From positions 106,489,157 to 106,553,156 of the forward strand of contig NC_079492.1 of NCBI RefSeq assembly GCF_020520425.1: DNA of 64,000 nt. The letters run 5' to 3'. Below, in pieces: positions 18,300 to 48,795 of this stretch; positions within the stretch are counted from its first letter, which is position 1; every line of letters begins with the position of its first letter. The notes beneath the pieces are model-generated. The model searched no databases, was not told the DNA's origin, and saw nothing but the letters and a program-made list of their open reading frames with translations. Made by a program: the position numbers and the translations under genes. This DNA is from Spinacia oleracea (lineage: Eukaryota; Streptophyta; Magnoliopsida; Caryophyllales; Amaranthaceae).

Positions 18300-20840
18300 T
18301 TTAACACCCCGACTTCTAAACATCATTAATTATGTTAATTATCTTTAATAAGCAGCGGAAACCCTAATTTAGCCGGAGCGTCACTTGCCGTATCTCCCTC
18401 GTGGGAAATACAAGGCGACATAACCTTTTTACATTTACTGACTACTGTTGAGTAACAGTAATTATACTTCACTTCGATTAATCCTTTAAAAATTACATTG
18501 AAATCTAAGTAAACCTTAATAAATATTTCTAACACGTTTAAACATTAATTTGAAGATCTAACTCAAATCGTGAAATCACACTTAGAGTTTAATTAATACA
18601 TCCCTTTATTACTAATGACATAGTTATCTTTACTAAACATCGATCGTGAATTTGATGGTTGCATCCTCACTCTAAGGCATCCCATGATCTTCTTCGTACC
18701 TAAAACAAAAGCAACATCGTGAGCCGAGGCCCAGTAACATACTATCCTAACAGCGTAAACTCATTTCAATTCATTTTATTTACTTTGCAATCAGGGAGAA
18801 TAGAACATAGTAAAACATTTTCATAAATGCAATAAAACATCATTTATAACTTGATACTTTGATAGTTCCCATTATCTTTCATAAAACCTTCTTTTTACTT
18901 GGTAACTGACAAGTTAGTCTTGCGGGACGTCTCCCACCTTGCGATAGTCCTCAAGGAGCACTCTCCCTTGTTGGACATACGCCCGTACCTAAATAGTTTC
19001 TTTTTTTAGCTTGCGGTAACCCTCAAGGAGCACTCTCCCTTGTTGGGTGTCCCGCGGTACGGCGGTACGTGCACGACCTAGAAATAGTAACCCCACTAAC
19101 TGCCAGAACCGGTTACACTTTTATTTATCATGTTTCGTATCTTATTCGTAACTCATCATTCTTATAAAATCATTCATAAGCACATTTGAATATCATCATG
19201 CATAAAACACACTTTATAAATACATTTCATATCCCACAATCCAATAAAAACATATCATTATAAACACATTTCATAATCTCATAAAACACATTTCATAAGG
19301 GGATCGTGGGTGTTAGCAATAGATGTTACCTCAACCGTAGTTTATACTTCCTGTTCGATGGATCGTTCTTCCTGAACTCCGAGTCCAATTTCTTTCAAAA
19401 TATTAAATAATTGAATTAGTTATTAATATGGTAATAATTTAACTTAGAAATTTCGAATAACGAATTTTCTAAAAAAATAAAGTTAGAAATATATAAATTC
19501 ATAGTTTTAATGAAAATATAATTAAACACCAATTTTAGTAATATATATAATTTATGGAAATTTCAATCGAAGTATATATAAATTCTAAATCAATTACACA
19601 AGATTTATTTAATTATGTCCTTGATAAATTTAGTACGGTAATTTATTTTTCTTAAACTCGATAATCAAATTTATTTATTTCCTGAAAATAATAACAATTC
19701 ATTAGTAAATAATTTATATCATAAAATTTATTAAAACATGAATATTAAGGAATTGAAAATCTGAAATTCATGTTTGTCTTACCCAAAGCCCAATTGATTG
19801 GCCCAACTTAAATATGGAGGAGTAAAAGAGCAAGGGGAGCAGGGCACGAACGAAGCAGGGCACGACCAGGAGGAACACGGGGAGGAGGAAGAGAGGAGGG
19901 AGGCTGGGGGCTCAGCCTGGGCGGTGAAACCGCGCCGAGAGGCGGCGGTGATGGTGGTTTGAGGCGGCAGAAACATGCGAGGGAAGGGGGAGAGGGGCGC
20001 GAACAGGGGAGAAATCAGGGGAGGAGAGGGGTGATGGTGACCGGAGGTTTGGGCGGAGGTTCTGGGCGGACTGGGAGGCGGCGCAACAGGGAAGCGCCGG
20101 AGAGACGGTGGTGGTGGTGGTGGTGGTGTGATTGTGGTGGCTGCAGCAGGGGAACGAAAAGAGGGAGGCAGGGGAAGGGGGTTGCGAAACAGGGGAGGAG
20201 CAAGGGTGGTGTTTCTCGGTTGGTTCTGGGAGGAGGGTGAGGCGGTGATTGGTTTGGTGCGGGTGCGGGTGGCTGGGAATGATGGAGGCAGCAGGTGGTC
20301 GTGGTGGTAAACGGTGGTGGTTGATGGTGGTGGTTCGACAGAGGAGAGAAAAAGAAGTGGAATTGGTCTCTTGTTTTTGCAATTAGAAATTCTAAAATTG
20401 TTGAATTTGTAAAGGATTGAAGTGGAAGAAGCAAACTTGATTTTTGTTTTGAATGGAGACTGAAATGAGGGAAGAAGGAAGGAAGGAAATTTCCTCCTTA
20501 CTTTGTACGTGGGGAGCAAGGAAGAGAAGAAAGGAAATGGAATCTTGGTACTCCAAGGGCATTTTCGTAATTTCACATGGTTGACTAAAATTCAGAAATT
20601 CTGTTTCTATTTTCGGAAATTACTAAAAATAGAAATGTTTAATTAAAACAAAGTCTCGTGAAATATATCGTTAACGAAAAATAAATAAATTTTCGTTTAT
20701 AAATTTATCGTTTAAAATAAATCGTAAAAACGTTTAAAATAACGAAATTTTTAAATTATTTCTAATAATTAAAACGAAATTACATTAATAAAATATTATT
20801 AATTTTAATAAATCGAGTTTAAAAATTTCGGGGTATTACA
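18300..20840 (-). repeat. 3' LTR of the gag-only Gypsy element
   Basis: 2541 bp. On the minus strand it begins TGTAATACCCCG after the polypurine tract. It contains a purine-rich/GC-rich stretch (about 19800-20550) whose minus strand is open as a Pro/Ser/His-rich frame (19779-20576, 265 codons). Confidence 0.92.
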
Positions 20841-20853
20841 TTCTTACCCCCTT
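20841..20853 (-). other. Polypurine tract of the gag-only Gypsy element
   Basis: The minus strand reads CTAAGGGGGTAAGAA immediately before the 3' LTR start TGTAATACC. It primes plus-strand synthesis. Between it and the gag stop (20854-21666) there is about 0.8 kb without ORF, containing two diverged copies of a segment starting attccgccatc (about 20999 and 21114). Confidence 0.8.
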
Positions 20854-21666
20854 AGAAAAAGTTTCGTCCTCGAAACTTGAAATTTAGATTTATAAAATGT
20901 TTGTTGAAAATCAAAATCATTCGATTAAAAGTACGATATTTATTTTAAAAACCAAGATCTCACAATTTCATTCCAATTCCGACAATGTCTAGCTTTCATT
21001 CCGCCATCTTCTTTGATGACTCCGTTTCAACTCGAGACCTAGAATTGAAGAGTAAAGAATACAAAAGGGGCAAAATTATATGTTGATCTTAATCGTCATT
21101 AAGGTCAATTATATTCCGCCATCGTCTTTTGTATCTCTACTTTACTTCATAAAATAGGATCGAGGAGCAAAGAACATAAAAAGGGCAAACTTGTTAGCGT
21201 AGACTAGGCTCCCATTTTTCTTTATGAGATCCCGTTTGAAAATATTTTCTACCAAAAGTAGTAATGTTTTTAATGCAAAATTATAATTCTGAAGATAGAT
21301 ATAATGACAATAAGTATTTACCTACAATTATAATAGTCAAATAATTTTGTAAAAGTCATTTGTTATAATAATCTCGTACTCTGAGCTCAGGAGAACTTCC
21401 ATCGAAGACGACTTTCATACGTAACGATTAGTTATTACCAATACAATCATGTCAGCATAAACATAATCCATAAAGCATATCTTAAACACATAATTCTTCA
21501 ATTGAAAATTTCATACATAAGCATAACATTCATATAACTGATGATGGTAATACATCTTAGTTAGATACTCGATTAGCGCATATTACTTTCAAAATTTCCA
21601 TCATTTATTCTAAAATATTCTAGATGTTCGATCGCACGATTTCAAAAGGTCATTATGCTTCATTCT

Positions 21667-22845
21667 TCATTCCATACTAGCGAAGTCGTCATTGTCATTT
21701 GCATCATCGTCTTTTCCTTGCATTAAAAACACTCGTCCATTCGATGTTGGTCCACGTGGGGGATTACGGTTGAAATTTGTAGTGCCACCATTTCCTTTGT
21801 TTTCATCGTTTCTCCTATCACCTTGCTCTCGATGTATTTGCGGACAATCTCTAATTTGGTGATCTTTGCTACCACATTTAAAACAATCTCGCGTACCAAT
21901 TCGACATTCTTTCTCTGTATGGTTCCATCTTCCACACTTGGCGCATCCACGATTCTTGTTGAAGTTTTGGTTTCCGTTATTCCCTCCTTGATAGCCGACA
22001 TTGACATTTTGTTTCTTATTGTTCGGTTGATTTTCTTCGAAGCTTCCTTTTCGTTTTCCATATGTTTCTTCTCGAAGCTTGATAATTCTTTCGACGTTAA
22101 TTGCTCGATCGTACAACTCTTGGAAAGTGGAAATTCTAGAACTCGAAAGTCGATCACGGATCTCAATGTTTAATCCTCCTTCAAATCGATTCATCCTTTG
22201 CCTATCAGTAGTCACCAGGTCAGGGGCAAATCGAGCAAGCTCATTGAATTTCACTGCATATTCTAGAACATTTTTCTTTCCTTGACTCAATTTGATAAAT
22301 TTCGATTCCATTTGCATTTGCAGAGAGTAGGAATAAAATTGTTCCCGCATAGCTTCCGTCAGCTTTTCCCAACCAAAACCAGGCTCATTTTGGATTCCTT
22401 TAACACTTTTCCACCACAGGTTGGCTTGTCCTTTCAAGTAAAAGACGGCATAGTTGACCTTCCACTTCTCGGGGCATTGCGTTGCATCAAATAACTTCTC
22501 CATATCGCTAATCCATTCTTCAAATTCAGTAGGGTCTGGCTTGCCATCATAAGTAGGGGGTTTATGAGAAGCGAACTTCTTGAACATGTTGGAGCATTCT
22601 TCTTGCTCTGACCTTGGCTTCTGACGATTTCCTTGCAGAAGTTCCGACATTATCAATCTCATTAAGTCCATTCGATTATCACTCGTTTCTCCTGGGGTGT
22701 CACCGAAAATGGGATCCTTGCGCAATTCTTCAATTCGTTCTTGCATTCCTTCCAGCGCTAATGAAGATTTGTGATTACCATTGCCATCGTTAACATCGTT
22801 ATCGTTTCTAGTGCCGTCAATAGGAATATTTCCGCTTGAAGTCAT
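21667..22845 (-). CDS. Gypsy Gag protein with two zinc knuckles
   Basis: A complete 392-aa ORF on the minus strand from ATG at 22845-22843. A retrotransposon gag domain spans about residues 105-215 (W111, the FYLKGQANLWW block at 135-145). Two CCHC knuckles lie at 301-314 (CAKCGRWNHTEKEC) and 321-334 (CFKCGSKDHQIRDC), with all zinc ligands present. The tail is acidic. Gag forms particles and binds the element RNA. It is the only ORF between the LTRs; no protease, RT, RNase H or integrase follows, so mobility would require pol in trans. The ORF is intact, in agreement with the nearly identical LTRs, which suggests selection on gag or very recent insertion. Confidence 0.93.
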   Translation of the reverse strand: MTSSGNIPIDGTRNDNDVNDGNGNHKSSLALEGMQERIEELRKDPIFGDTPGETSDNRMDLMRLIMSELLQGNRQKPRSEQEECSNMFKKFASHKPPTYDGKPDPTEFEEWISDMEKLFDATQCPEKWKVNYAVFYLKGQANLWWKSVKGIQNEPGFGWEKLTEAMREQFYSYSLQMQMESKFIKLSQGKKNVLEYAVKFNELARFAPDLVTTDRQRMNRFEGGLNIEIRDRLSSSRISTFQELYDRAINVERIIKLREETYGKRKGSFEENQPNNKKQNVNVGYQGGNNGNQNFNKNRGCAKCGRWNHTEKECRIGTRDCFKCGSKDHQIRDCPQIHREQGDRRNDENKGNGGTTNFNRNPPRGPTSNGRVFLMQGKDDDANDNDDFASME

Positions 22846-23101
22846 CGCCGATCTGATCGCAAGGATACAACGCTTCAGATAATCTTTTCTTCTTGAAATT
22901 AGACTAAGAAATTCTGCAAATCATAACAAAGAAAACATTCCCGTTGCGTTCCCCGTCCTATCACTCACACTCATTTCATTTTAACTCAGCATGATTTTAA
23001 CTTATTCTTTTTACTTATTCCTTAAAATTCTTGCTTAAAACCTAATAAATTTTATTTCGTGTAAAACCCGTAAAGTTTAGCACTTATGGTCGCAGAACCT
23101 T

Positions 23102-23115
23102 GGCTCTGAATACCA
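23102..23115 (-). other. Primer binding site of the gag-only Gypsy element
   Basis: The minus strand reads TGGTATTCAGAGCC, the initiator-Met tRNA complement with one extra T, three bases inside the 5' LTR. Confidence 0.8.
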
Positions 23116-23118
23116 AAC

Positions 23119-25691
23119 TGTAACACCCCGACTTCTAAACATCATTAATTAGGTTAATTGTCTTTAATTAGCAGCGGAAACCCTAATTTAGTCGGAGCGT
23201 CACTTGCCGTATCTCCCTCGTGGGAAATACAAGGCGACATAACCTTTTTACATTTACTGACTACTGTTGAGTAACAGTAATTATACTTCACTTCGATTAA
23301 TCCTTTAAAAATTACATTGAAATCTAAGTAAACCTTAATAAATATTTCTAACACGTTTAAACATTAATTTGAAGATCTAACTCAAATCGTGAAATCACAC
23401 TTAGAGTTTAATTAATACATCCCTTTATTACTAATGACATAGTTATCTTTACTAAACATCGATCGTGAATTTGATGGTTGCATCCTCACTCTAAGGCATC
23501 CCATGATCTTCTTCATACCTAAAACAAAAGCAACATCGTGAGCCGAGGCCCAGTAACATACTACCCTAACAGCGTAAACTCATTTCAATTCATTTTATTT
23601 ACTTTGCAATCAGGGAGAATAGAACATAGTAAAACATTTTCATAAATGCAATAAAACATCATTTATAACTTGATACTTTGATAGTTCCCATTATCTTTCA
23701 TAAAACCTTCTTTTTACTTGGTAACTGACAAGTTAGTCTTGCGGGACGTCTCCCACCTTGCGATAGTCCTCAAGGAGCACTCTCCCTTGTTGGACATACG
23801 CCCGTACCTAAATAGTTTCTTTTTTTAGCTTGCGGTAACCCTCAAGGAGCACTCTCCCTTGTTGGGTGTCCCGCGGTACGGCGGTACGTGCACGACCTAG
23901 AAATAGTAACCCCACTAACTGCCAGAACCGGTTACACTTTTATTTATCATGTTTCGTATCTTATTCGTAACTCATCATTCTTATAAAATCATTCATAAGC
24001 ACATTTGAATATCATCATGCATAAAACACACTTTATAAATACATTTCATATCCCACAATCCAATAAAAACATATCATTATAAACACATTTCATAATCTCA
24101 TAAAACACATTTCATAAGGGGATCGTGGGTGTTAGCAATAGATGTTACCTCAACCGTAGTTTATACTTCCTGTTCGATGGATCGTTCTTCCTGAACTCCG
24201 AGTCCAATTTCTTTCAAAATATTAAATAATTGAATTAGTTATTAATATGGTAATAATTTAACTTAGAAATTTCGAATAACGAATTTTCTAAAAAAATAAA
24301 GTTAGAAATATATAAATTCATAGTTTTAATGAAAATATAATTAAACACCAATTTTAGTAATATATATAATTTATGGAAATTTCAATCGAAGTATATATAA
24401 ATTCTAAATCAATTACACAAGATTTATTTAATTATGTCCTTGATAAATTTAGTACGGTAATTTATTTTTCTTAAACTCGATAATCAAATTTATTTATTTC
24501 CTGAAAATAATAACAATTCATTAGTAAATAATTTATATCATAAAATTTATTAAAACATGAATATTAAGGAATTGAAAATCTGAAATTCATGTTTGTCTTA
24601 CCCAAAGCCCAATTGATTGGCCCAACTTAAATATGGAGGAGTAAAAGAGGTTACAATTTCAGAAACAAAGTTTCTGAAATTGAGGAGCAAGGGGAGCAGG
24701 GCACGAACGAAGCAGGGCACGACCAGGAGGAACACGGGGAGGAGGAAGAGAGGAGGGAGGCTGGGGGCTCAGCCTGGGCGGTGAAACCGCGCCGAGAGGC
24801 GGCGGTGATGGTGGTTTGAGGCGGCAGAAACATGCGAGGGAAGGGGGAGAGGGGCGCGAACAGGGGAGAAATCAGGGGAGGAGAGGGGTGATGGTGACCG
24901 GAGGTTTGGGCGGAGGTTCTGGGCGGACTGGGAGGCGGCGCAACAGGGAAGCGCCGGAGAGACGGTGGTGGTGGTGGTGGTGGTGTGATTGTGGTGGCTG
25001 CAGCAGGGGAACGAAAAGAGGGAGGCAGGGGAAGGGGGTTGCGAAACAGGGGAGGAGCAAGGGTGGTGTTTCTCGGTTGGTTCTGGGAGGAGGGTGAGGG
25101 GGTGATTGGTTTGGTGCGGGTGGCTGGGAATGATGGAGGCAGCAGGTGGTCGTGGTGGTAAACGGTGGTGGTTGATGGTGGTGGTTCGACAGAGGAGAGA
25201 AAAAGAAGTGGAATTGGTCTCTTGTTTTTGCAATTAGAAATTCTAAAATTGTTGAATTTGTAAAGGATTGAAGTGGAAGAAGCAAACTTGATTTTTGTTT
25301 TGAATGGAGACTGAAATGAGGGAAGAAGGAAGGAAGGAAATTTCCTCCTTACTTTGTACGTGGGGAGCAAGGAAGAGAAGAAAGGAAATGGAATCTTGGT
25401 ACTCCAAGGGCATTTTCGTAATTTCACACGGTTGACTAAAATTCAGAAATTCTGTTTCTATTTTCGGAAATTACTAAAAATAGAAATGTTTAATTAAAAC
25501 AAAGTCTCGTGAAATATATCGTTAACGAAAAATAAATAAATTTTCGTTTATAAATTTATCGTTTAAAATAAATCGTAAAAACGTTTAAAATAACGAAAAT
25601 TTTAAATTATTTCTAATAATTAAAACGAAATTACGTTAATAAAATATTATTAATTTTAATAAATCGAGTTTAAAAATTTCGGGGTATTACA
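23119..25691 (-). repeat. 5' LTR of the gag-only Gypsy element
   Basis: 2573 bp, near-identical to 18300-20840. It carries an extra segment of about 38 bp at 24650-24687, absent from the other LTR, built around a 13-bp perfect hairpin; and it lacks 6 bp of a GGTGCG duplication near 25115. Confidence 0.92.
24654..24682. other. Perfect hairpin present in only one LTR
   Basis: The arm caatttcagaaac (24654-24666), loop aaa, and complementary arm gtttctgaaattg (24670-24682) pair over 13 of 13 bases. The sister LTR lacks it and the adjoining bases (junction near 19811), with short gag repeats at the breakpoint. Confidence 0.85.
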
Positions 25692-27439: not shown

Positions 27440-27767
27440 CTATAATCAGCGTGGACCAGGGTGTTTTTGTAAATTAACATGAATCGGGTAATCGGCGTCT
27501 TCTATTATAGAAACTATAGGTTCTGTAAAGTAATTATATCTTCTGAATAATAACTATGAAAAAATAATAATTAAATAGTCATTTCGATAAGAATAATTAT
27601 TCTATCCAAAGAGTAACTATATCATATAGAAATGTAATTTTAACTGTAAAACAATTACTATAAAAATAAGAATAATTATATATTCATTCTTACAGACAAA
27701 AAGAGTATATTATAGAAACTATAGGTTATGTAAAGTAACTATATTTTCAGAATAGTAACTATGGAAA

Positions 27768-27808
<41 letters not shown>
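27440..27808. repeat. Tandem repeat unit of about 200 bp, left part, with (AAT)n
   Basis: A unit with the words atagtcatttcgataagaat and ctatccaaagagtaact starts near 27579 and runs into an (AAT)n tract (about 27768-27808). The next copies are at about 31938 and 32141 (spacing about 203 bp). The RT element therefore lies inside the AAT tract between two units. Confidence 0.8.
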
Positions 27809-27811
<3 letters not shown>

Positions 27812-28019
27812 TGGGCGATTAGGGGATTAGGGCTTTTCTCAGGGCAGCAGTGTTCATCATTCCGGCGGGTTCACGGGCGGTCTCAGGCAGGTCGGCGGCG
27901 GGTTGCAGGTGCCTCGGGTTTTTCAGGCGGGTTGCAGGTGTCTCGGGTTCATTTCAGGCGAGTTCCAGTGCAGTTTCAGTCGGCAAGCAGTGCAGTTTCA
28001 ACGGTTTTTTGTCCAGTTT

Positions 28020-28290
28020 TTTGTCCAGTTTCAGGGTAGTTTCTGTGTTCGGTTTTCAGGCGAGGTTCGTTCGGTTTTCAGGCGTGTATTGCGGCCGTTT
28101 TTGGAGCGTTTTGCCGTGGGTTTTCAGGCGGTTCCACGTGGGTTTTCAAACGTTTTCCAGGCGGTGCTTGGTGTTTCTGGTCGACGGTTTCTGGTCTTCA
28201 GGCGGTGTTTCTGGCCGACGGTTTCTGGTCGACGGTTTCTGGTCTTCAGGCGGTGTTTCTGGTCGTCGGTTTCTGGAATTCAGTATCGGG
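28020..28290 (+). repeat. Tandem repeats in the 5' region of the RT element
   Basis: Variants of ggtttctggtcgacggtttctgg and ttcaggcggtgtttctgg recur between about 28165 and 28275, with more diverged gttttcaggcg units upstream. 5' tandem repeats of this kind often act as internal promoters in LINEs; that role is inferred. Confidence 0.7.
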
Positions 28291-28671
28291 AAGTCAGTTT
28301 CATTATTTCGTGAGTTCAATTTCCGGTCGTGCGTGGGTTATTCAATTCGTGAGTACAGTCAGTTCAGGTTCGAGAGTTCTTTTCAGGCATTTTGTTTGGT
28401 TTTTCGTGCGGCGTTGTATTTGTGTGATCTGGTTCGGTGTTTGGTGGGGTCTGGTGGGAGCTTGGTGTTTGGATTATTCTGGTGGTGTTCGAATCAGCAT
28501 TGTAGCGTTGCAGCTTCGTGGTGTTGCGGGGATCGAGTCACCGTTTTGGTGCAGTTTGCAGCGTGGTTATTCTGGCGAGAGTGGTGCAGTTTGCAGGGGT
28601 TTTGTGTTCTCCATTTCCTTTGGTTTTCTTATTTATTGAGGATAACCTTTCCACGGTTGAAGTGCTTTGAT

Positions 28672-31600
28672 ATGGCGGCTTCCGTGGAGAAGTTTCATTG
28701 CCCTTTTGTGGGTCTTAGCGGGTGCCAGGATGGAGGTGGGCGTGGTTTGGTGAGGAGTTCTCTGATCACTCACTTACGGGATCGTCATTGTTGCTCTGGT
28801 GTGCGGGATGTAACCCGTCATTCCCTTACTACCAATTTGCAGGTTTTTTCTACGGCTGAGGTGACCTTTCGTCGTATGGGTATTTGGCTATGTGGAGATT
28901 GTTTCAAGACACATACTCAACGTACTAGGTGTCGACATGGCAGTGGTTCTAGTACTGTTTTTGTGGACCCACCTGATTCTGGGGATGGTATTTTTCGTTT
29001 TATTCTCTATGGTATTCAAAAACCGCAAGCTCCTGCTTCCAAGCTGTCTTCTTCTGATGCGCCTCGAGAACATCATTTTTCTTTTGATGTTTCTCTTCTA
29101 GACACTTTATTGTCTAAGCGTTTGCGCTCTGTGAAATCCATCCCTCCCAGATGTCGTTTGGGTTTTTCGCGAGTTCTAAAAGGGGCGCTTGATAAGGTGA
29201 TTTGTAGACCTGATGACATCGCTTGTTCGGTTCAGTTGCTTGTGTTACCTCTTTGTGTCCTCACGACTTTTTCACCGCGAAGTAATCGTGAGTGTTCCTC
29301 TGGTGTTCGGCGGCGACGACAGGAAGAGTGTATCACCTCTGCTATTCGTTCTTGGGGTGAGCCTGGTGGTTCCGAGCAACTAGTCATAGACACATTGGCT
29401 AGTGTGTCTCCATTGGATGTTGACGAAGACCATGATTTGGCGGAGCGTAATATTAAGCAATGCAAGAGAAAGATTTCTGATGGTCACTACACTACTGCAG
29501 TTAGGGTTCTTTCTTCCTCGGGTCTTGCCCCTTACAATGATGCTACCCTTGCAGATTTGCGAGCAAAGCACCCTTCCGTTCCGGTCCCTACCTTACCGGA
29601 TATCCCTGTTGATCATCACCTTACTGCTTCCTCCGCTGTTGTTTTGGAGCAGATTAAGGGCTTTCCGCGTGGTACTTCGTGCGGTAGGGATGGCTTGCGT
29701 GCCCAACACCTTTTGGATTGCTTGGGTGGTGCTGCTGTAGCTGTTTCTGATGAGTTGGTGGATGCTATCACTCAGGTAGTTAATCTCTTTCTTGCTGGAA
29801 AGTGTCCTGCTGAGCTTGGAGGATACATTGCTAGTGCTCCTCTTACGCCACTTGTTAAGCCTGGTGGCGGTATTCGGCCTATTGCTGTGGGCACTATTTG
29901 GAGGCGCCTTGTTTCAAAGGTCGGGGCTGCTTTGGTTGGTCCGCGTTTAGGAGCCTACTTTGGAGGTATTCAGTTTGGAGTTGGGGTTCCAGCAGGTGGT
30001 GAGGCCATTCTCCATGCTGTCAATCGGTTGGTTGAGGCTCGTGGGGCCGATGTTGGCCTCTCTATGTTATTGGTGGATTTTCAGAATGCGTTCAATTTAG
30101 TTGATCGATCGGCTTTGTTGCGTGAGGTTCGGCTTCATTGTCCTGCTCTTTCGCGTTGGGTTGAATTCTGCTACTCTTCTCCAGCACGGCTGTATTATGG
30201 GGAGCATACCTTGTGGTCTTGTCAGGGTGTGCAGCAAGGGGATCCTCTCGGCCCTTTGCTTTTTTCTTTGGTTCTACATCCATTGGTGTGTTGCATCAGA
30301 GACTCATTTGATCTATCTCTTCAGGCTTGGTACTTGGACGATGGCACTATCGTTGGTGACACTTTGGTGGTTGGACAGGTCTTGGAGTTGATTTTGGAGG
30401 AGGGTCCTCATTTAGGTCTCCATGTTAATGTTGAGAAGACGGAGGTTTTTTGGCCTTCGGAGGACCCACGCAGTCGTCTGGAGGGTGTCTTTCCTGCGGA
30501 TATTGCTCGTCCTGCGCTCGGTGTTAAGTTGCTTGGTGGCCCAGTCAGTACGGATTCTTCTTTTTGCAAGGAGTTGGTTTCGCAGCGTGTGTCGAAGACT
30601 GTTGTGTTGATGGATGCTGTAGCCAAGCTTAATGATCCCCAGTGTGAGTTGTTGCTTCTTCGTGCGTGTACTGGAGTTTCTAAACTCTACTTTGCTATGC
30701 GCACTTGTCCGCCTCATCTTTTCGAAGCGGCCCAATTATCTTTTGATGTGGCTCTGTGGGCTTCTTTAGAGCGCATCGTGACTGCTTCGGGACCTGGGTT
30801 CGGTGACTGGCAATGGCGCCTTGCCACCTTGCCTTATTCTTATGGAGGATTGGGTGTTTATTCAGCTGGTGATGTTCGGCATTATGCTTTTCTTGCATCT
30901 CGTTTGCAGTCTTCTGCTTTGCAGGATTCGCTTCTTCGGCTTTCAGGTGTTGATGGACCGGGACCGGCCTTTGATGATGCTCTTGGTCTTTTCAATAGGA
31001 CCGTGGAGTCCGACCTTATGCGTAGCCCTAGTGAGATCGCTGCCCCCACACTCATGAAGAAATTGGCAGACATATATTTCACGAAGGTTACTGCTGATGC
31101 GGAATCCGCCTACTCCTTATCTTCACGTCTTGTTGCCCTATGGAAATCGCAGCAGGGGGATCACTCCTCGGCTTGGTTGCGGGCAGTCCCCATCTCGGGT
31201 TTAGGCCAGACTATGAACGGTAAGACTTATCGTTCGGTTCTTTGCTATCGGTTGGGTATTCCGTTGTTCTCTGATTCGACGCCGTGTTCTGCTTGCTCTC
31301 GGGTTTTCGACGGGGACATTTATGGGGATCATGCCGTGTCTTGTGCTGGGATTGTGGGTATCAAACATCGACATAATGTTGTTCGTGATACCCTTTTGGA
31401 TATTTGCTATCGGTCGGGGATTTCTGCTCGCAAGGAGGTTGATGTTGGGCTGACTAGTGAGAGTGATGGAGCTCTTCGTCCTGCAGATATTTTGCTTTAC
31501 TCATGGGATGGCGGTCTAGATGTGTGTGTTGACTTGACTGGGTCTTCCCCTATGACGCAATCGGGGTTGTCAGGCTTCGTTCCGGGTCGGGTTGTGGCGG

Positions 31601-31857
31601 TTGCAGCGCAACGGAAGCAGGATAAGTATGCGGCACGTTGTAGGGCTTTGGGTTACGGTTTCTTTCCTTTTTCCTTCTCTTCTTTTGGGGAATTAGAGAA
31701 AGGGGCTGTTTCTTTGCTGAAGCGGGTCCAGACGTACTCCAGGGCTCAGGACATTGGGGCGCGGGCAGCTGCCCACATTTTCAGCAGGATCGGGTTCGCC
31801 ATAGCTAGAGGAGTGGGGGCCCAGATTGTATCTCGGCTCCCCTCCAACTTCTTGTAG
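28672..31857 (+). CDS. R2/R4-like LINE polyprotein: zinc finger, reverse transcriptase, CCHC and restriction-like nuclease motifs
   Basis: The ORF is 1061 aa from the first in-frame ATG; the frame is open further upstream but without Met. Residues 10-39 fit a C2H2-type finger (C10, C18, H34, H39), followed by CGDC. The RT core spans about 370-640: LVKPGGGIRPI, LLVDFQNAFN (Asp-containing motif A), GVQQGDPLGPLLF at 519-531, and the YLDD catalytic box at 554-557. The C-terminal part has C872-x2-C875-x11-H887-x3-C891 followed by RPAD (936-939) and a further Asp at 954, matching the CCHC plus PD-(D/E)XK arrangement of LINEs with a restriction-like endonuclease. No APE endonuclease or RNase H domain is seen. 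Such proteins nick target DNA and prime cDNA on it. No stop or frameshift. Land-plant LINEs are usually L1 or RTE with APE, so this architecture is unusual; the nuclease call rests on motifs only. Confidence 0.8.
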   Translation: MAASVEKFHCPFVGLSGCQDGGGRGLVRSSLITHLRDRHCCSGVRDVTRHSLTTNLQVFSTAEVTFRRMGIWLCGDCFKTHTQRTRCRHGSGSSTVFVDPPDSGDGIFRFILYGIQKPQAPASKLSSSDAPREHHFSFDVSLLDTLLSKRLRSVKSIPPRCRLGFSRVLKGALDKVICRPDDIACSVQLLVLPLCVLTTFSPRSNRECSSGVRRRRQEECITSAIRSWGEPGGSEQLVIDTLASVSPLDVDEDHDLAERNIKQCKRKISDGHYTTAVRVLSSSGLAPYNDATLADLRAKHPSVPVPTLPDIPVDHHLTASSAVVLEQIKGFPRGTSCGRDGLRAQHLLDCLGGAAVAVSDELVDAITQVVNLFLAGKCPAELGGYIASAPLTPLVKPGGGIRPIAVGTIWRRLVSKVGAALVGPRLGAYFGGIQFGVGVPAGGEAILHAVNRLVEARGADVGLSMLLVDFQNAFNLVDRSALLREVRLHCPALSRWVEFCYSSPARLYYGEHTLWSCQGVQQGDPLGPLLFSLVLHPLVCCIRDSFDLSLQAWYLDDGTIVGDTLVVGQVLELILEEGPHLGLHVNVEKTEVFWPSEDPRSRLEGVFPADIARPALGVKLLGGPVSTDSSFCKELVSQRVSKTVVLMDAVAKLNDPQCELLLLRACTGVSKLYFAMRTCPPHLFEAAQLSFDVALWASLERIVTASGPGFGDWQWRLATLPYSYGGLGVYSAGDVRHYAFLASRLQSSALQDSLLRLSGVDGPGPAFDDALGLFNRTVESDLMRSPSEIAAPTLMKKLADIYFTKVTADAESAYSLSSRLVALWKSQQGDHSSAWLRAVPISGLGQTMNGKTYRSVLCYRLGIPLFSDSTPCSACSRVFDGDIYGDHAVSCAGIVGIKHRHNVVRDTLLDICYRSGISARKEVDVGLTSESDGALRPADILLYSWDGGLDVCVDLTGSSPMTQSGLSGFVPGRVVAVAAQRKQDKYAARCRALGYGFFPFSFSSFGELEKGAVSLLKRVQTYSRAQDIGARAAAHIFSRIGFAIARGVGAQIVSRLPSNFL

Positions 31858-31907
31858 TTCACTTGTTCTTTGTAGCTTGTTAAGCTTGTAACGTTTTGGT
31901 GTTTTCC

Positions 31908-31910
<3 letters not shown>

Positions 31911-31938
<28 letters not shown>

Positions 31939-32489
31939 TAGTCATTTCGATAAGAATAGTAATTCTATCCAAAGAGTAACCATATCATATAGAAAAGTAA
32001 TTTTAACTGTAAATCAATTACTTTAAAAATAAGAATAATTATATATTCATTTTTGTAGACAAAAATAGTAAATTATAGAAACTATAGGTTCTATAAATTA
32101 ACTATATCTTCAAAATGGTAACTATGAAAATAATAATAATATAGTCATTTCGATAAGAATAATTATTCTATCCAAAGAGTAACTATGTCATATTGAAAAG
32201 TAACTTTAGCTGTAGAAAAATTAATATATTATAAAATAAACAATATGATATATATATGCTTTAAAGGTCATATAGTAACTTTTACTATTATATAGTTACT
32301 ATTGTATATCACATAATTACTGAAATAAAAAAGAGTAACTATATCAAAAGTAACAGTAATTACAACTCCTGAACGGTAATAAAGAAAACATTAACTACTT
32401 GGTTAGTTGTTTTAGCTACGACATTCTAATTATTTACATCTATTAAATAAACCAGGTTAAGATCAAATATCTTTTGAACTAAAAAAATA
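31911..32489. repeat. AAT tract and about 200-bp tandem units of MULE-1, right part
   Basis: (AAT)n at 31911-31938, then two copies of the unit that begins atagtcatttcgataagaat (31938, 32141). Many tagtaactat words occur. Confidence 0.8.
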
Positions 32490-39650: not shown

Positions 39651-40054
39651 TAGTTAATGTTACAAAACTAAAAATTATTATGACTTCCAAGTTCCCTAGT
39701 TATTATTGTAAAAAACATTATGGACGAAAGGAGGACAAATTAAAAGATTACAGGCGTAAAATCTATGGATAACTACGTCGTCACATGCTTCAAGCTCCCC
39801 AATCTAGATGCTTCAGCAGTTGGGCACACAAACAAACAACATAACCCCAACTTCTTAACTCCATTTTCCATTTTCGTATCAAACTTTATCACGTGCACAT
39901 TCTCTATCAGTTTACGTGTCGTCGTCTCTCTTTATACGGAGTAGTTTATAGTTTTATACCCTCCTCTTACTCCATTATTGACTCCTTAAAGTTATCCTTT
40001 CTCATTTCCACCAAACAAAAAACTCTCTTACTTTATTTCTCTCCTTAACCAATC

Positions 40055-41929
40055 ATGACGAATCATATCCTCCCATTCCACTTCCTCCCCTTTTTCTCTC
40101 TCCTCCTTTCCACCGCCACTTCCTCCTTCATCGGCGTCAACTTTGGCCGAGTCGCCGATAACCTCCCGCCTCCTTCCGCTGTCGCCCATTTCCTCACTTC
40201 TCAAACTACCCTCACCTCTGTCAAGCTCTTCGACTGCGATCCTCAAATCCTTCAAGCTTTCGCCAACACCGGTATCTCTCTCACTGTTAACATCCCCAAC
40301 GCCAACGTCATCCCCCTCACCGACTCCGCCGCCGCTCAATCATGGGTCGCCACCAACATCCTTCCTTACCATCCTCAAACAATTATCCGTTACATAGCTG
40401 TTGGCAACGAGGTTCATTTCTCCGGCGACAAAACGTTAATTGCAAACACCGTTAAATCAATGAAGTCTATTCATCAAGCACTTTTATCCGCTAATATAAC
40501 CGATATCAAAGTCACCACCCCACATTCTCTTGCTATCTTACCTCCATTAATGTCCCCTAGTTCTGGACACTTCCAGAAGGGCTATGATCATGTGTTCTTC
40601 GGCCCACTGTTGGAATTCCACCGCCGGACGAAATCACCCTTCATGGTTAATCCTTACCCTTACTTCGGGTTCAATGCTTCCATGATTGAATTCGCTATCT
40701 TCAAGAAAAACGACGGCGTTTTGGACAAGGCAACTGGATTGAAGTATTACAACATGTTTGATTACTTGATGGACGGTGTTTACTCTGCGATGAAGCGGTT
40801 GGGTTATGATGACGTGGATATTGCTGTTGGTGAAACCGGTTGGCCTTCGGCCGGTGATCCCACTGAACCGGCGGCTACTTTGGATAACGCGATTTCGTAT
40901 AATGGGAATTTGGTTAAGCATTTGAATTCCGGCAAAGGGACGCCGTTGATGCCGAACCGGACTTTTGATACTTATATTTTCGCTTTGTTTAATGAAAATC
41001 TTAAGCCGAGTACCAGTGAGAAGAATTACGGTTTGTTTAGACCGGATTTTAGCGCGGTTTACGACGTCGGTGTGTTGAAGTCACCTTCTCAGGTATGGGC
41101 AATTATACTTTATCTTCTCCTAGGTCGCAAACTCGCAATTATTTGATTACTGCATTATTCAGATAACCATGTTGGAATTTTGATTACATCTTTTACTGTA
41201 TATTAAAGATATTAACGAGCAGCGGTGCTAATAAACGTAAATTTATGAAACAGATGAATGGTTATTAACTCATTAAGGATAGGTGCATTGATTGTTGAAT
41301 TGAAAAGAAAACCGTCCGTTTGAGCAGATCTGCAGATGCTTGTTTACAGTAAAAGCATAACTTCATTTTTTCGAACAATTGATTGCCTTTTAAAAGTTAA
41401 AATCAGGGGTATTATTGTCAATCTAAATTATTCATCGGAAATGTTTTCCCGGGTTTCTGTAGCCGGGTCCCACTGAAACGGTAACTTACTAAATTTTCCA
41501 AAAATAATATAGGGAAAGGGACCCGCAAAAGCACCAGTAGCTCCATCACCGTCAGATTCAGATCAGAAATGGTGCGTAGCAAAAGCAGAAGCTACAGATG
41601 ATAAATTACAAGGGAATTTAGATTATGTGTGTAGTTTAGGGATAGACTGCAAGCCCATACAGGATGGTGGGCCATGTTTTGATCCAAACACCGTTAGATC
41701 TCATGCATCATACGCGATGAACGCTTACTACCACATCAACGGTCAGCAAGATTATGATTGCTACTTTGATGGTACCGGTGTTGTCACCGACAGTAACCCT
41801 AGTAAGATCTCTATTAGTCTGTATTTTTCTTCTTCTTTTTAATATGCTGGTTTTTTTTTCCAAATTCTAATTTATGTTTTTGTTCCTCCAATTACTGAAG
41901 GTTATGAAGCATGTGAGTACGTGGCATAA
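40055..41929 (+). CDS. Glucan endo-1,3-beta-glucosidase (GH17) with C-terminal X8/CBM43 domain
   Basis: Three exons: 40055-41092, 41513-41801, 41901-41929; phases agree, 451 aa. It hydrolyses beta-1,3-glucan (callose) at the cell wall or plasmodesmata. An N-terminal signal peptide (residues 1-about 23, hydrophobic core FLPFFSLLL) precedes the GH17 barrel: IGVNFG start, acid/base Glu119 in AVGNEV, nucleophile Glu260 in GETGWPSAG. The X8 module begins at KWCVAK in exon 2 and has its six Cys, the last in exon 3. The protein stops right after the module (CEYVA), without the hydrophobic GPI-signal tail many GH17-X8 proteins have. Either it is secreted and not anchored, or a further exon is missed. 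Confidence 0.92.
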
Positions 41930-44006: not shown

Positions 44007-47000
44007 ATGGAAAACCTAATTAGGAGTGTGATTCAATCCACTCAAAGAATTCAAGTTCATGTTGAACCTGATATTCAAGATGCAACAATGGAGGACGTTC
44101 TCAACAATTGCATCGAAATTAATGCTTTGGCACAGGAACGTGAAGAAGAGGAGGCAATGGAAGCTGAAGAACAACATATTATTTCTGATTATGAAGGTAT
44201 GAATAATTAATTATATGTTTGAAGTTAAAGTTATGGTTATAAATGTAAAAGTTAGGGATATTCCTGTTAAAGTTGGGTAAATGTGTTGGTTTGGCTGAAG
44301 TATTGGTGTTTGAAAAAGTTACAGATATCAAAGTTAAAGTTTAGGTATTCAGAGTAAAAGTTAAGTAAGTAAAATGTAAAGTTATAGTTATGCATAAAAC
44401 TTATAGTTTATACGTTCAAAGTTAAAGTTATAGTTATGAATGAAAAAGTTAGAGATATTCCTGTAAAAGTTATGTAAATGTGTTGGTTTGGCTGAAAAAT
44501 AGGTGTTTGAAAAAGTTATAGATATCAAAGTTAAAGTTGAGGTTTTCAGAGTAAAAGTTAAGTATTGAAATGTAAAGTTTAGAATATTTGCTTAGATTTT
44601 TAACATGATTTTAATAAAGAATTTACATGGTTTTATGCATAAAAGTTATAGTTTGATGCATAAAAGTTAGCCTTGTTTAAATAGATATAAGGCTTGTTTT
44701 AGTAAAAGTTATAGTGTTATCCATAAAAGTTAGACTTATTGTTGTAAAAGTTACAGTTTTATGCGTAAAAATTAGGCTTGTTTTAGTAAAAGTTAGCCTT
44801 GTTTTAGTAAAAGTTAAAGTTCTATGCATAGAAGTAAAACTTGTTTTAGTAAATGTTGGCCTTGTTTTAATAAAAGTTATAGTATTATATGTAAAAGTTA
44901 GGGTTTAATAATAAAAATTTCTGCTGATTTTTGGTAATTGCAATAACAGAACCGGATCAAGATATTGTTGGAACACTGATGGGATACACTGCTGAAACAG
45001 TGGAGGAACTTCTAGGTTTCTACGAAAAACATGCTAGTGAGGTTGGATTTTCCATAAGGAAAGGAAACACGAGATTCAAAGTTGGGACAAGAATCGTGCT
45101 TGAAAAGACATATGTTTGTTCAGCAGCAGGAGTAACAAACAATGGAAAGAACAAAAAGAAAAAAGTGCAAACATTTGTTCCTGTAGTGCCCAAAAAAGAG
45201 AGAAAACCAAGGCAAGTTTCGATCACGAGAACTCAATGTAGGGCTTGCTTGAGAGTGAAAATGAATTCTGAAGGCAGATATGAGGTTGTTAATCATGTGA
45301 TAATGCACAACCATGATTTAACTAGAAGTCAATGGCACTACTTGCATAGATCTGAAAGGCAAATAACGGAAGAGAAGAGGGAGGCAATTGAAACTATGCA
45401 AAAATCTGGTAATAGTTACATTTTGATAGTTAAACTTTTATGTTCTGTGTAAAAGTTATTGTTTTGATACTCATCCTTTTGTTACTGCAATCACCTTCTA
45501 AGATGAAAAAAGTTGGAAATATAAAAGTCACACTCATCTCAGTTAAAGTTAAGCTTTTTAAAGTAAAAGTTAAGTTAGAGTAGAATGAGAAATGTCTTTA
45601 ACTTTGACAACAATTTCCTTAACTTTAACCTACATAACCACAACTTTAACACAAAAATTAACTATAAGGTGTTAAAGTTAAGTGAATGACAATTAAAGTT
45701 TTAGAAGTTAAAGTTAAGCTTTTTAAAGTAAAAGTTAGGTTAGAGTAGAATGAAGACTGTCTTTAACTTTGACAACGATTTCCTTAACTTTAACCTAAAT
45801 AACAACAACTTTAACACAGAAAATTAACTATAAGGTGTTAAAGTTAAGTTATTGACAATTAAAGTTTTAAAAGTTAAAGTTAGCCTTTTTGTACTAAAAG
45901 TCAGGTCTGAAGAAGTAAAAGTTGAGTAAAGTTAAACATTTTGCCGAAACTATTATTTTATTTACATTCTTTTATGCTCAACTGACAGGTCTGTCATCCA
46001 CGGCTTCCTTTAACTACATGGCAATTGAAGCTGGAGGTGAAGAAAATTTGGGACACTCGAAGAAAGACCATCTAAATTACTGCACGAGGTTAAAAATGAA
46101 GCAAATAGAAAGAGGTGATGCACAAGCAGTAACTGACATAATGTATTTAGAGCTTGAAGGTGACCCAAACTTCTTTTTTAGATTTAGATTGGATGAAAAA
46201 GGTAAATTGAGGAGTTTGTTTTGGAGGGACTCTATGATGATGGAAGACTATGGAATTTTTGGAGATATAGTGGTTTTTGACACAACGTATAGAACAAACA
46301 GGTATAACCTAATTTGTGCTCCAATAGTTGGAATAAACAACCACTGGAACAATTGCATGTTTGATTGTGCATTCATAGGAGATGAAAAGATTGAGTCGTT
46401 TGTGTGGCTTCTACAAACTTTCAAAAAGTCAATGGGGGGAAAAAGTCCAATATCAATCTTTACAGATCAAGATGCAGCAATGAACAATGCCATCAATCAG
46501 GTAAAAATCCAAGATTTATCCTTTCAGAGTCCTTAACTTTAACTTCATATTCCTCAACTTTAAGTTCATAGTCCTTAACTTTAACTTCCAAATCTTTAAC
46601 TTTAAGTTCAGAATCCTTAACCTTAAATTTATAAATCTTAACTTTAATTTTAGAATCCTAAAGTTTAAATTTAGAATACTTAACCTTAACTTTAGGATCC
46701 TTAACTTTAACTTTAACTTTAAAATTCTTAACTTTAACTTCAATATTCTTAACTTGAACTTCAAAATTCACAACTTTTAAGATTGGGTTGTATATGCAGG
46801 TCTTTCCAGATTCAAGACACAGATTATGTGTATGGAATTTGCATCAGAATGCTATTACCAGATTTGGGGCATTGAAACGAGATCCAACTTTTAAGAAGAC
46901 ATTCAACTATTGCTTGTATAAGTGTGTCACAGTAGTTGAATTTGAAACCAATTGGAGATCAATGCTGCAACAATATGAGCTGATAGGGGAAGAGTGGTTT

Positions 47001-48795
47001 ACAAATGTATACGATTTGAGAGAAAAATGGTGCCCTGCGCTAAGCAAAGACTTCTTTTCAGCTGGGATTTTGTCTTCACAACGAAGTGAAAGCACTAATC
47101 ACGCCATCGGATTTAGAGCAAACAGAACAACAAGTTTAACTGATTTCTATAGATTGTTCAAAGGTACAATACAGCGTTGGAGAAGTACAGAAAAGCAAGC
47201 TGAATTCTCTTGTAGTAAATCGGTTCCATCCTCGGCTTTACCACTATCTGGATTGCTGAAACATGCATCAGAATTTTACACATTGTCACTATTCAGAGAC
47301 TTTGAGGAGGAATTTGGATATTCAATTGCAACAACAGCAAAATTAATTTGGAAACAAGGTAAATATCAGAATTTAAAGTGTCCATTTTTGAAAAATTTTA
47401 AAGTTAGTCTTTTTACTGTAAAAGTTATGCCTTTTTTTATTAAAAGTTTATAAACTGAAATATAAAGTTTATTAACTTTTACTTCACCAGGGCTAACTTT
47501 TATACATATTTTCATAACTTTAAGTAAAAAGTTAAAGTTAGGTTTTTTGTTTTAAAAGTTAAGATTTTGAAGTTAAAGTTTAGGCATCTGAAGTTAAAGT
47601 TTAGAATTATGAAGTTAAAGTTAAGTTTTTTGTTTTTAAAGTTATGTAACCTGAAAAATTAAGTTTCATAACTTTAAGTACACCAGGGCTAACTTTTATA
47701 TTGATTTTCCTAACTTTAAAACATGGTACTACTAATGCAGAAAATACTGAATTCTATGTTGTGTCCATTGATGAAGAACCTTGGTCTGCACAGAGAGTAA
47801 CATACATCCACGAGAGCCAAACAGTATCATGTACGTGTAAAAACTTTGAAGCTTCAGGATGGTTGTGCTACCACTACATTAGGATATTGCACCTTCATTC
47901 GGTTAACCGGATTCCAGAACAGTACATCAAAAAGAGGTGGACAAAATCTGCCAAGTCATCAGTTTGGAACAAATTAGAAAATGAAAAACCAGAAGAGGTG
48001 CAGTACACACCTTGGCGCCAAACCATGGCTAGGAAATACTACAACCTTATCTTGAAAAGCCAGTCAAATGAGGAGACAAGAACCCTTATGGAGGATGGTT
48101 ATGCCGCTAGTGTGTCTCTGGTTGATGAACTTCTAGCGTCATTAAGTGTTTCAAACACTGACGACGCTTCAACCACAGAAACAAGTGCAACAGCAGCACC
48201 TGAAACAAGTGCAACAGCAGCACCTGAAACAAATGCAACATCAGCATATGAAACAAACTCAGCACCAACAGGTAAAAGTTAATTGTTTTTTGGTTAAAGT
48301 TAAGATATTCCCTGTTAAAGTTAAGTTAGAGATGATGAAAGTCTGTCTTAACTTTAGAATAAATTTCATAACTTTAACCTACAGAACTACAACTTTAAAC
48401 CAAAAAAACTATAATGTGTGAAATAAAAACATATTGGAACTCACATTTTCTTAAAAAGGAAAATATGTAAAAGTTACAATTTTATAAGTAAAAGTTAGGG
48501 TTTTATATGTTAAAGTTTGGGTTTTATAAGTAAAAGTTATGATACAGTATGTTAAATGTTTGTAGGTACTCATGCAACAACAACAAGTGATACAAGTGTA
48601 CAACAAGAAACAAGTTCTGAACCTGCAACAAACACAGCAACTGAACCTCCTATGGTGTTGGATCCTGAACGTTGCACAACAAAAGGAAGGAACAAAAGAC
48701 CACGAGGACCATTTGTCAAAAAGAAGAAGGGAAAAACTGCAGCGCCTCCAACAGCAGACTTTGGAACAATAACTCCAAATTTGAGATTATTTTGA
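44007..48795 (+). CDS. FAR1/MULE-type transposase
   Basis: Six exons: 44007-44196, 44950-45408, 45989-46500, 46800-47358, 47741-48271, 48566-48795. All junctions are GT-AG and in phase, giving 826 aa. Order: acidic start; FAR1 DNA-binding domain about 85-190 (RFKVGTRIV, TQCRACL, MHNHDL with the zinc-binding Cys/His); MULE DDE domain with D314 (FDTTYRTN), D376 (FTDQDAAM) and E484 (SSQRSESTNH); SWIM zinc finger C604-x-C606-x9-C616-x-H618 (CTCKNFEASGWLCYH); a Thr/Ala/Glu-rich repeat tail (ETSATAAP x2); basic end (KGRNKRPRGP, VKKKKG) for nuclear import. It would cut and paste the element. All catalytic and zinc residues are present, so it may be functional. Every intron is filled with AAAGTTA-type repeats. 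It converges with the ULP1 gene. FAR1/FHY3 host factors descend from this family, but the TIR/TSD context marks this as a transposon gene. Confidence 0.93.
44197..48565. repeat. AAAGTTA-motif repeats in the transposase introns
   Basis: The intron intervals 44197-44949, 45409-45988, 46501-46799, 47359-47740 and 48272-48565 consist largely of aaagttaaagtt/taactttaactt words separated by 5-10 variable bases. The plus strand is mostly AAAGTT, but 46515-46780 is TAACTTT. In intron 2 a 166-bp unit is duplicated (starts 45541 and 45707). Confidence 0.9.

Follow-up and report, generated by a model that had tools for sequence, protein, structure and literature searches.

We analysed a 64,000-nucleotide stretch of the Spinacia oleracea genome (contig NC_079492.1, called the window below) and describe a long interspersed nuclear element (LINE) of 4.1 kb, which lies in it at 27807-31908 on the forward strand and is embedded in an (AAT)n tract. 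Comparison of genomic copies shows that AAT was present before insertion at most of the sites examined and that the repeat is the target of the element, not just its tail. Very likely, the element is autonomous, has been active recently, carries a restriction-like endonuclease (RLE) and integrates by target-primed reverse transcription into AAT microsatellites. Microsatellite-targeting RLE LINEs are already known (Dong, some HERO families and Togen); what is new is a plant member that has a divergent reverse transcriptase (RT), departs from the usual knuckle spacing and conserves AAT as its target. Its features, with window coordinates and strand, are as follows.

27503..32253, +: host tandem repeat of ~205 bp, broken by the element; its intact junctions at 27531-27600 and 32096-32165 represent empty sites
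27768..27806, +: left part of the target microsatellite, (AAT)13, from a run scan; eight sister junctions have 0-22 consecutive AAT units at the same place
27807..28671, +: 5' untranslated leader with the GCGATTAGG motif near its start
28672..31857, +: single open reading frame (ORF) of 1061 aa with RT and RLE motifs; 37 of 43 scored genomic copies are stop-free
28699..28938, +: candidate zinc fingers C-x7-C-x15-H-x4-H (residues 10-39) and C-x2-C-x9-C-x-H (residues 74-89), by pattern match only
29857..30453, +: RT core, residues 396-594, with YLDD at 554-557; Pfam RVT_1 at 3.4e-12, top PDB matches being R2-named chains
31285..31344, +: CCHC knuckle C872-x2-C-x11-H-x3-C891, by pattern and by comparison with published spacings
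31369..31629, +: RLE residues RHN 900-902, E922, RPAD 936-939, D954 and K982-x2-K985-Y986, present in 26/26 and 13/13 aligned rows
31858..31908, +: short 3' untranslated region (UTR), whose end point differs among copies, from copy comparison
31909..31938, +: AT(AAT)9A, the target's right part, with a junction register common to 47/52 copies

The element, its copies and their AAT tracts

The (AAT)13 at 27768-27806 and the (AAT)9 at 31911-31937 are the sole runs of five or more units on either strand of the 64-kb window, and a position inside an (AAT)n tract, claimed in a sequence-only reading of this DNA, is borne out by AAT at both ends. The ORF begins with an ATG at 28672 and stops at 31855-31857. 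Upstream of it the frame stays open to 27823, which gives 1344 codons in the window copy; because copies vary in this open length (1073-1344 aa among the 43 scored), the start of the 1061-aa ORF is taken as the shared one. The leader is A-poor, has no stop in the ORF frame from 27823, contains 48-bp tandem repeats at 28173-28276, and varies in length between 6 and 986 nt among 29 copies. Rfam called no 5' ribozyme similar to that of hepatitis delta virus (HDV) in the window element or in six fetched loci; models of this type can miss divergent ribozymes. Folding of the window 3' UTR gave no hairpin better than those of shuffled sequences (z 0.04).

We searched an assembly of 894 Mb in 242 contigs. 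Since 43 of 3056 first-look candidates were scored with the protein, and 40 of 1148 with the 3' end as DNA query, all copy counts are lower bounds. Every one of the 43 scored protein matches is full-length at 95-100% identity, and the 3' end was found in at least 41 places; identity is 98-100% in 40 of these and 83% in the remaining one. Fetching 30 of the 43 protein matches and 30 of the 41 DNA matches gave 60 loci, or 52 distinct copies once eight duplicates had been dropped. The median ratio of nonsynonymous to synonymous substitution rates (dN/dS), calculated without four stop-bearing copies and over non-independent pairs, was 0.18 (45 pairs) and 0.21 (120 pairs), which fits an element that was amplifying under selection until recently. 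The data support a young, multi-copy and intact family, and the intactness ascribed earlier to the window element holds, with its 1061-aa ORF open.

On the right, all 52 distinct copies have at least three AAT units (106 at most). The junction reads [T/C]AT(AAT)n in 47 of them, and L003 and L038 have the same register before an interrupted repeat. The end of the element itself varies, with six shorter end points beside the main one: CGTTTTAT, CGTTTTATAT, CGTTAT, CGTTTTGGTAT, GTGTTTTAT and, in L019, GCTTAT. In L009 and L026 there is poly(A) between the 3' end of the element and AAT, as if the template had been polyadenylated RNA.

On the left, at least three AAT units precede the ORF in 29 of the 30 ORF-complete copies. 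The thirtieth, L002, has (AAT)2, apparently in the same repeat where L021 follows (AAT)18, so that the tabulation of both flanks that had been proposed for this element finds AAT on both sides in 30/30 copies if these two units are counted. The exact start of the leader is undefined: the GCGATTAGG motif lies 4-47 nt behind the left tract in 20 of the 30, and the left edge was judged by eye in the others. L007 has lost its leader, with a junction 6 nt before the ATG. Beyond the AAT tracts, the flanks are mostly copy-specific, some being shared repeats or other copies. The tracts of L002, L005, L021 and L041 adjoin CTGATCTGGTCTGATCTG-type repeats, and several copies have apparently entered one repeat family. 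The assembly contains 61,380 overlapping (AAT)8 registers on both strands; AAT tracts are plentiful, yet they form a tiny share of its 894 Mb.

A different explanation is that AAT is merely the element's own 3' tail, copied from RNA, and that insertion sites are arbitrary. The 3' AAT of all 52 copies agrees with this, read-through RNA could also supply such a tail, and TAA repeats form the end of the I element, a member of another clade (PMC3747384). Were AAT nothing more than a tail, however, 5'-truncated copies would begin in arbitrary sequence, whereas 9 of 12 truncated 5' breaks lie no more than 25 nt from at least three left AAT units (L034, L035 twice, L039, L046, L049, L050 twice and L054). 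For positions drawn at random the share is 0.13% within the window and 0.59% within distal flanks. The count covers breaks in L031-L060, omitting one in L050 at position 7 (sequence edge) and one in L045 at 630 (internal rearrangement); breaks in L007, L010, L011, L012, L013 and L038 fall outside it. The remaining three breaks, which have no left AAT, speak for a tail; the left flanks of the ORF-complete copies speak against it.

Empty sites bear on the same question. The genome was searched with the 160 bp of host repeat that adjoin the element, and with 40 of 477 candidates scored there were at least 111 matches in 39 arrays. Neighbouring matches are separated by 71 uninterrupted joins of 33-98 bp and by one of 4204 bp, which is the window element. 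The window's two own sister junctions hold (AAT)3 and (AAT)4, and five of eight others that were fetched have 4-22 AAT units: 4-5 in L068, L069 and L070, 22 in L072, and 13, behind an interrupted start, in L071. Judging from the contents of the sister junctions, the host site is an AAT microsatellite of varying length that some monomers lack. In L051 the element has inserted a second time into a ~205-bp repeat of this kind. Left flanks, truncated breaks and sister joins together refute AAT as a mere tail as a full account, although tail-derived AAT may contribute to the right-hand tract; we regard the explanation by tail and arbitrary sites as very improbable. That AAT might be confined to the tail had been named in advance as the outcome that would count against an AAT target, and it is not what the copies show. 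As an observation in its own right, the ~205-bp tandem repeat is dispersed over at least 39 arrays whose junctions carry a variable number of AAT units (0-22 in a row).

There is a second subfamily, whose protein shares 75% identity with that of the window in two aligned copies; with 150 of 1707 candidates scored, it was found at no fewer than 150 places. Its 3' UTR differs, and all eight of its loci with a visible 3' end (L007, L010, L011, L012, L038, L050, L062 and L063) run into at least three AAT units. Since both subfamilies end in AAT despite different 3' UTRs, the AAT association seems older than their split. In one sequence of the second-subfamily 3' UTR (L062:3299-3345), a hairpin is predicted that is better than those of shuffles (z -3.2). 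Copies also lie head to tail: the 3' end of another copy is found directly upstream in L006, L009, L012, L018 and L030, another copy lies downstream in L007, L011, L013, L035 and L038, and L012 has a 30-bp second-subfamily remnant with AAT on each side. This stacking of copies in each other's tracts suggests that an insertion keeps the target for the next one.

Protein motifs and the putative endonuclease

RVT_1 (residues 396-594, E 3.4e-12) is the only Pfam domain in the 1061-aa ORF. In a profile search of the PDB, two R2-named chains lead (E 2.6e-7 and 3.3e-7) and a third follows at 8e-5, ahead of retron and group II RTs (6e-4 to 1.6e-3), chain 8gh6 (0.001), which we take to be Bombyx R2, and LINE-1 ORF2-named chains (0.002-0.003). 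Judged by these matches, the RT is of the non-LTR (long terminal repeat) type. The residues of the first candidate zinc finger are C10-x7-C18-x15-H34-x4-H39; neither of the two N-terminal patterns has a Pfam match.

The motifs named from sequence alone, namely zinc finger, YLDD RT, C-x2-C-x11-H-x3-C and RPAD...D, could all be located. The complete C-terminal string reads C872-x2-C-x11-H-x3-C-x8-RHN-x19-E922-x13-RPAD939-x14-D954-x27-K982-x2-K985-Y986, and it is kept in 26/26 and 13/13 rows of two family alignments; in a C-terminal alignment, whose rows overlap with those of the other two, 10 of 12 rows have it in full, one begins too late and another lacks the E. KxxKY, which is K982-QD-K985-Y986 in the window copy, is found in 26/26, 13/13 and 12/12 rows. 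For SLACS and CRE1/2 the motif is given as C-x1-3-C-x7-8-H-x3-4-C-x9-10-RHD/N-x19-33-E-x9-21-R/KPD-x12-14-D/E (PMC12857005), the knuckle of RLE LINEs in general as CX2-3CX7-8HX4C, and their catalytic K as the lysine that opens KX2KY, in the second helix (PMC5678591). A relaxed pattern of the C-terminal motif matches the protein once, compared to 0 of 200,000 shuffles. By motif, and with relaxed spacing, the C-terminus qualifies as a putative RLE, and the earlier assignment to the RLE-type LINEs stands on the knuckle, RHN-E-RPAD-D and KxxKY.

The plant LINEs L1 and RTE likewise insert by target-primed reverse transcription, use an apurinic/apyrimidinic endonuclease (APE) and are not known to have a repeat target. 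An element of this kind could have been misread as RLE: according to two reviews, plant LINEs belong to L1 and RTE, and those of flowering plants almost exclusively to L1, which agrees with what the sequence-only reading had said of land plants (PMC9033089, PMC3747384). Their tails, unlike the tract described here, are (A)n or (TTG)n (PMC3747384). In the topology tests given below, a position inside plant L1 was not rejected (p 0.09-0.51). Against it stand the single ORF without an APE/exonuclease domain in Pfam (threshold E<=1 for the whole ORF and E<=10 for residues 1-276 and 645-1061), the RLE motif, KxxKY included, that follows the RT, and the separate clustering of LINE RTs from the same genome. 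The Pfam result and the RLE motif lead us to reject an APE-type LINE, a reading to which we give almost no weight.

Placement among LINE clades

An RT tree was built from 230 columns and 13 sequences: four of the family, three R2, one LINE-1, four LINE RTs of the same genome (from 150 listed RVT_1 places) and one bacterial RT as outgroup. In the best tree the family lies outside R2+L1 (approximate likelihood ratio test, aLRT, 90; bootstrap 74), and the four same-genome plant LINE RTs cluster without it (98/96), joining human LINE-1 weakly (65/62). In approximately unbiased (AU) tests under two models, no alternative topology was rejected (p 0.09-0.51). The family RT is ~21% identical to R2 and to L1 alike. 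A piece of the Bombyx R2 RT matches LINE-1 at 1.7e-11, and for a comparable piece of the family RT the values are 0.0014 to Bombyx R2 and ~0.02-0.05 to LINE-1. Its position in the LINE tree is, as far as RT sequences tell, probably deep. Outside the spinach genome no usable relatives were found: viral contigs gave none, plasmids and phages one weak RT match each, and prokaryote genomes a single 20-residue match in a bacterial assembly.

Dong, itself of the RLE type, is a close parallel in target choice. The family could belong to the R4/Dong clade, or to R2 proper, and have inherited its TAA/AAT targeting, a reading that we consider improbable. The Dong element of Bombyx mori (R4 clade) is flanked by TAA/AAT repeats (PMC3774820), and the likeness in target suggested beforehand is confirmed, since AAT microsatellites accompany the copies here in the way that TAA repeats accompany Dong. 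R2, too, has a single ORF with N-terminal zinc finger, RT, CCHC knuckle and KX2KY RLE (PMC5678591), its chains are the best PDB matches, and a grouping with R2 was not rejected (AU p 0.22-0.28). Given the distance of the family RT from Bombyx R2 relative to the R2-L1 match, and the placement in the tree, an R2 label is not supported; the profile scores place Bombyx R2 (0.001) barely nearer than LINE-1 (0.002), the knuckle has x11, and RPAD replaces RPD. R2 membership by target fails as well, because all 52 copies examined end in AAT tracts and the 28S ribosomal DNA insertion site was not seen. Dong has an HDV-like ribozyme at its 5' end (PMC3774820), whereas none was detected in the loci examined of the family, which lives in a plant host and whose descent from R4 is at most a possibility. 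The R2/R4-like label, as a statement about descent, is therefore not supported by the comparison with R2 and L1; in the RT phylogeny once suggested as a check, the family grouped neither with L1 nor with R2 in the best tree, and neither alternative was rejected.

Some elements of the CRE clade target spliced-leader exons, and others telomeres, rather than AAT. Membership of that clade (SLACS, CRE1/2, MoTeR, FoTeR), as automated annotation of spinach suggests, is a plausible possibility, although we lean against it. A survey with MGEScan-nonLTR reported 642 CRE elements (2,981,624 bp, mean 4.6 kb) and 22 R2 among 1020 full-length spinach LINEs, making CRE the most abundant class; its main text has neither the word endonuclease nor the word microsatellite (PMC6337768). 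The AAT family is probably counted among these elements but is undescribed there; that the two coincide is something we infer, which counts against the CRE assignment. In its favour, the RT is placed deep in the best tree, CRE-clade elements are RLE LINEs that are site-specific or telomere-associated, and RHD/RHN-E-RAD-type motifs, similar to the one found here, are described for FoTeR and MoTeR together with 5' tandem repeats; the x11 of the knuckle is, on the other hand, longer than the x6-8 given for the clade (PMC12857005).

Insertion model, surroundings and significance

The 5' truncations and variable 3' ends match what is expected of target-primed reverse transcription. For an RLE LINE inserting into AAT in this way, the N-terminal zinc fingers or the RLE would read the repeat, and the RLE would nick the ATT strand, always in one register (ATTAT^T). 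The nicked 3' end would then prime reverse transcription from near the 3' end of the RNA, at a place that varies; a nick in one register combined with a variable RT start would account for both the constant register and the varying end of the element. Because AAT is found on the left, the second strand would be opened within the tract, by a cut that leaves AAT at both sides. Every insertion would preserve its own landing site, which would explain head-to-tail copies in each other's AAT tracts.

Several observations weigh against this model. Three truncated breaks (L037, L057 and L060) have no left AAT. Among the sister junctions, L073 has two short AAT pairs, while L075, with one unit, and L074, with none, hold no AAT run. 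On the right, L009, L026 and L028 depart from the common register, the junction of L028 being out of register. Variant 3' ends are perhaps inherited and hence not independent events, so that independent events are fewer than copies. At the C-terminus, the strict published RLE pattern has no match in the protein, because of x11 instead of x7-8, x8 instead of x9-10 and RPAD instead of RPD; sequence searches of the PDB gave nothing credible, only chance matches, Pfam gave no credible match, and an AlphaFold2 model from 13 sequences has a mean predicted local distance difference test score (pLDDT) of 35, too low to show a PD-(D/E)XK fold. Finally, the window copy (L001) compared to L002-L006 has dN/dS of 0.19-1.34 at dS of 0.004-0.031. 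High values among the closest copies are as expected soon after insertion and give no evidence of selection.

Elsewhere in the window, near-identical (99-100%) direct repeats at 19000 or earlier to 20840 and at 23819-25691 enclose a Ty3-type gag ORF (21670-22920, minus strand), and the region ~19000-25691 looks like a young LTR retrotransposon, perhaps non-autonomous. An open frame at 40049-41143 belongs to glycosyl hydrolase family 17 (beta-1,3-glucanase-like; Pfam 3.3e-78). Pieces of a MULE-type transposase at 45919-48279 (MULE domain 9.3e-19, SWIM finger) are surrounded by AACTTTAAC-type 21-bp minisatellites over ~44-56 kb.

Similar proteins probably exist, without annotation, in other angiosperm genomes. 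HERO elements come from animals. Among RLE LINEs with microsatellite targets, which include some HERO families, Togen uses (TG)n (PMC4640811), a different repeat, and lives in fish. In the literature searched, which excluded most subscription journals and Repbase, we recognised no account of an RLE LINE from plants that targets microsatellites. A wider proposal, whose chances seem to us evenly balanced, is that a deeply branching clade of RLE LINEs, so far unrecognised, exists in flowering plants: AAT targeting would be kept across its diverging subfamilies, a fixed-register cut would regenerate landing pads, and microsatellite and LINE would expand together into head-to-tail arrays.

As an RLE LINE of plants that targets a simple repeat, the family closes a gap in the distribution of LINEs, and its target choice can be read from many sites. 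AAT tracts are easily synthesised, so that the register and specificity of the enzyme are directly testable, and a site-specific plant reverse transcriptase could serve gene insertion. The family also suggests, in concrete terms, how AAT microsatellites could be maintained and how arrays of nested LINEs could arise.

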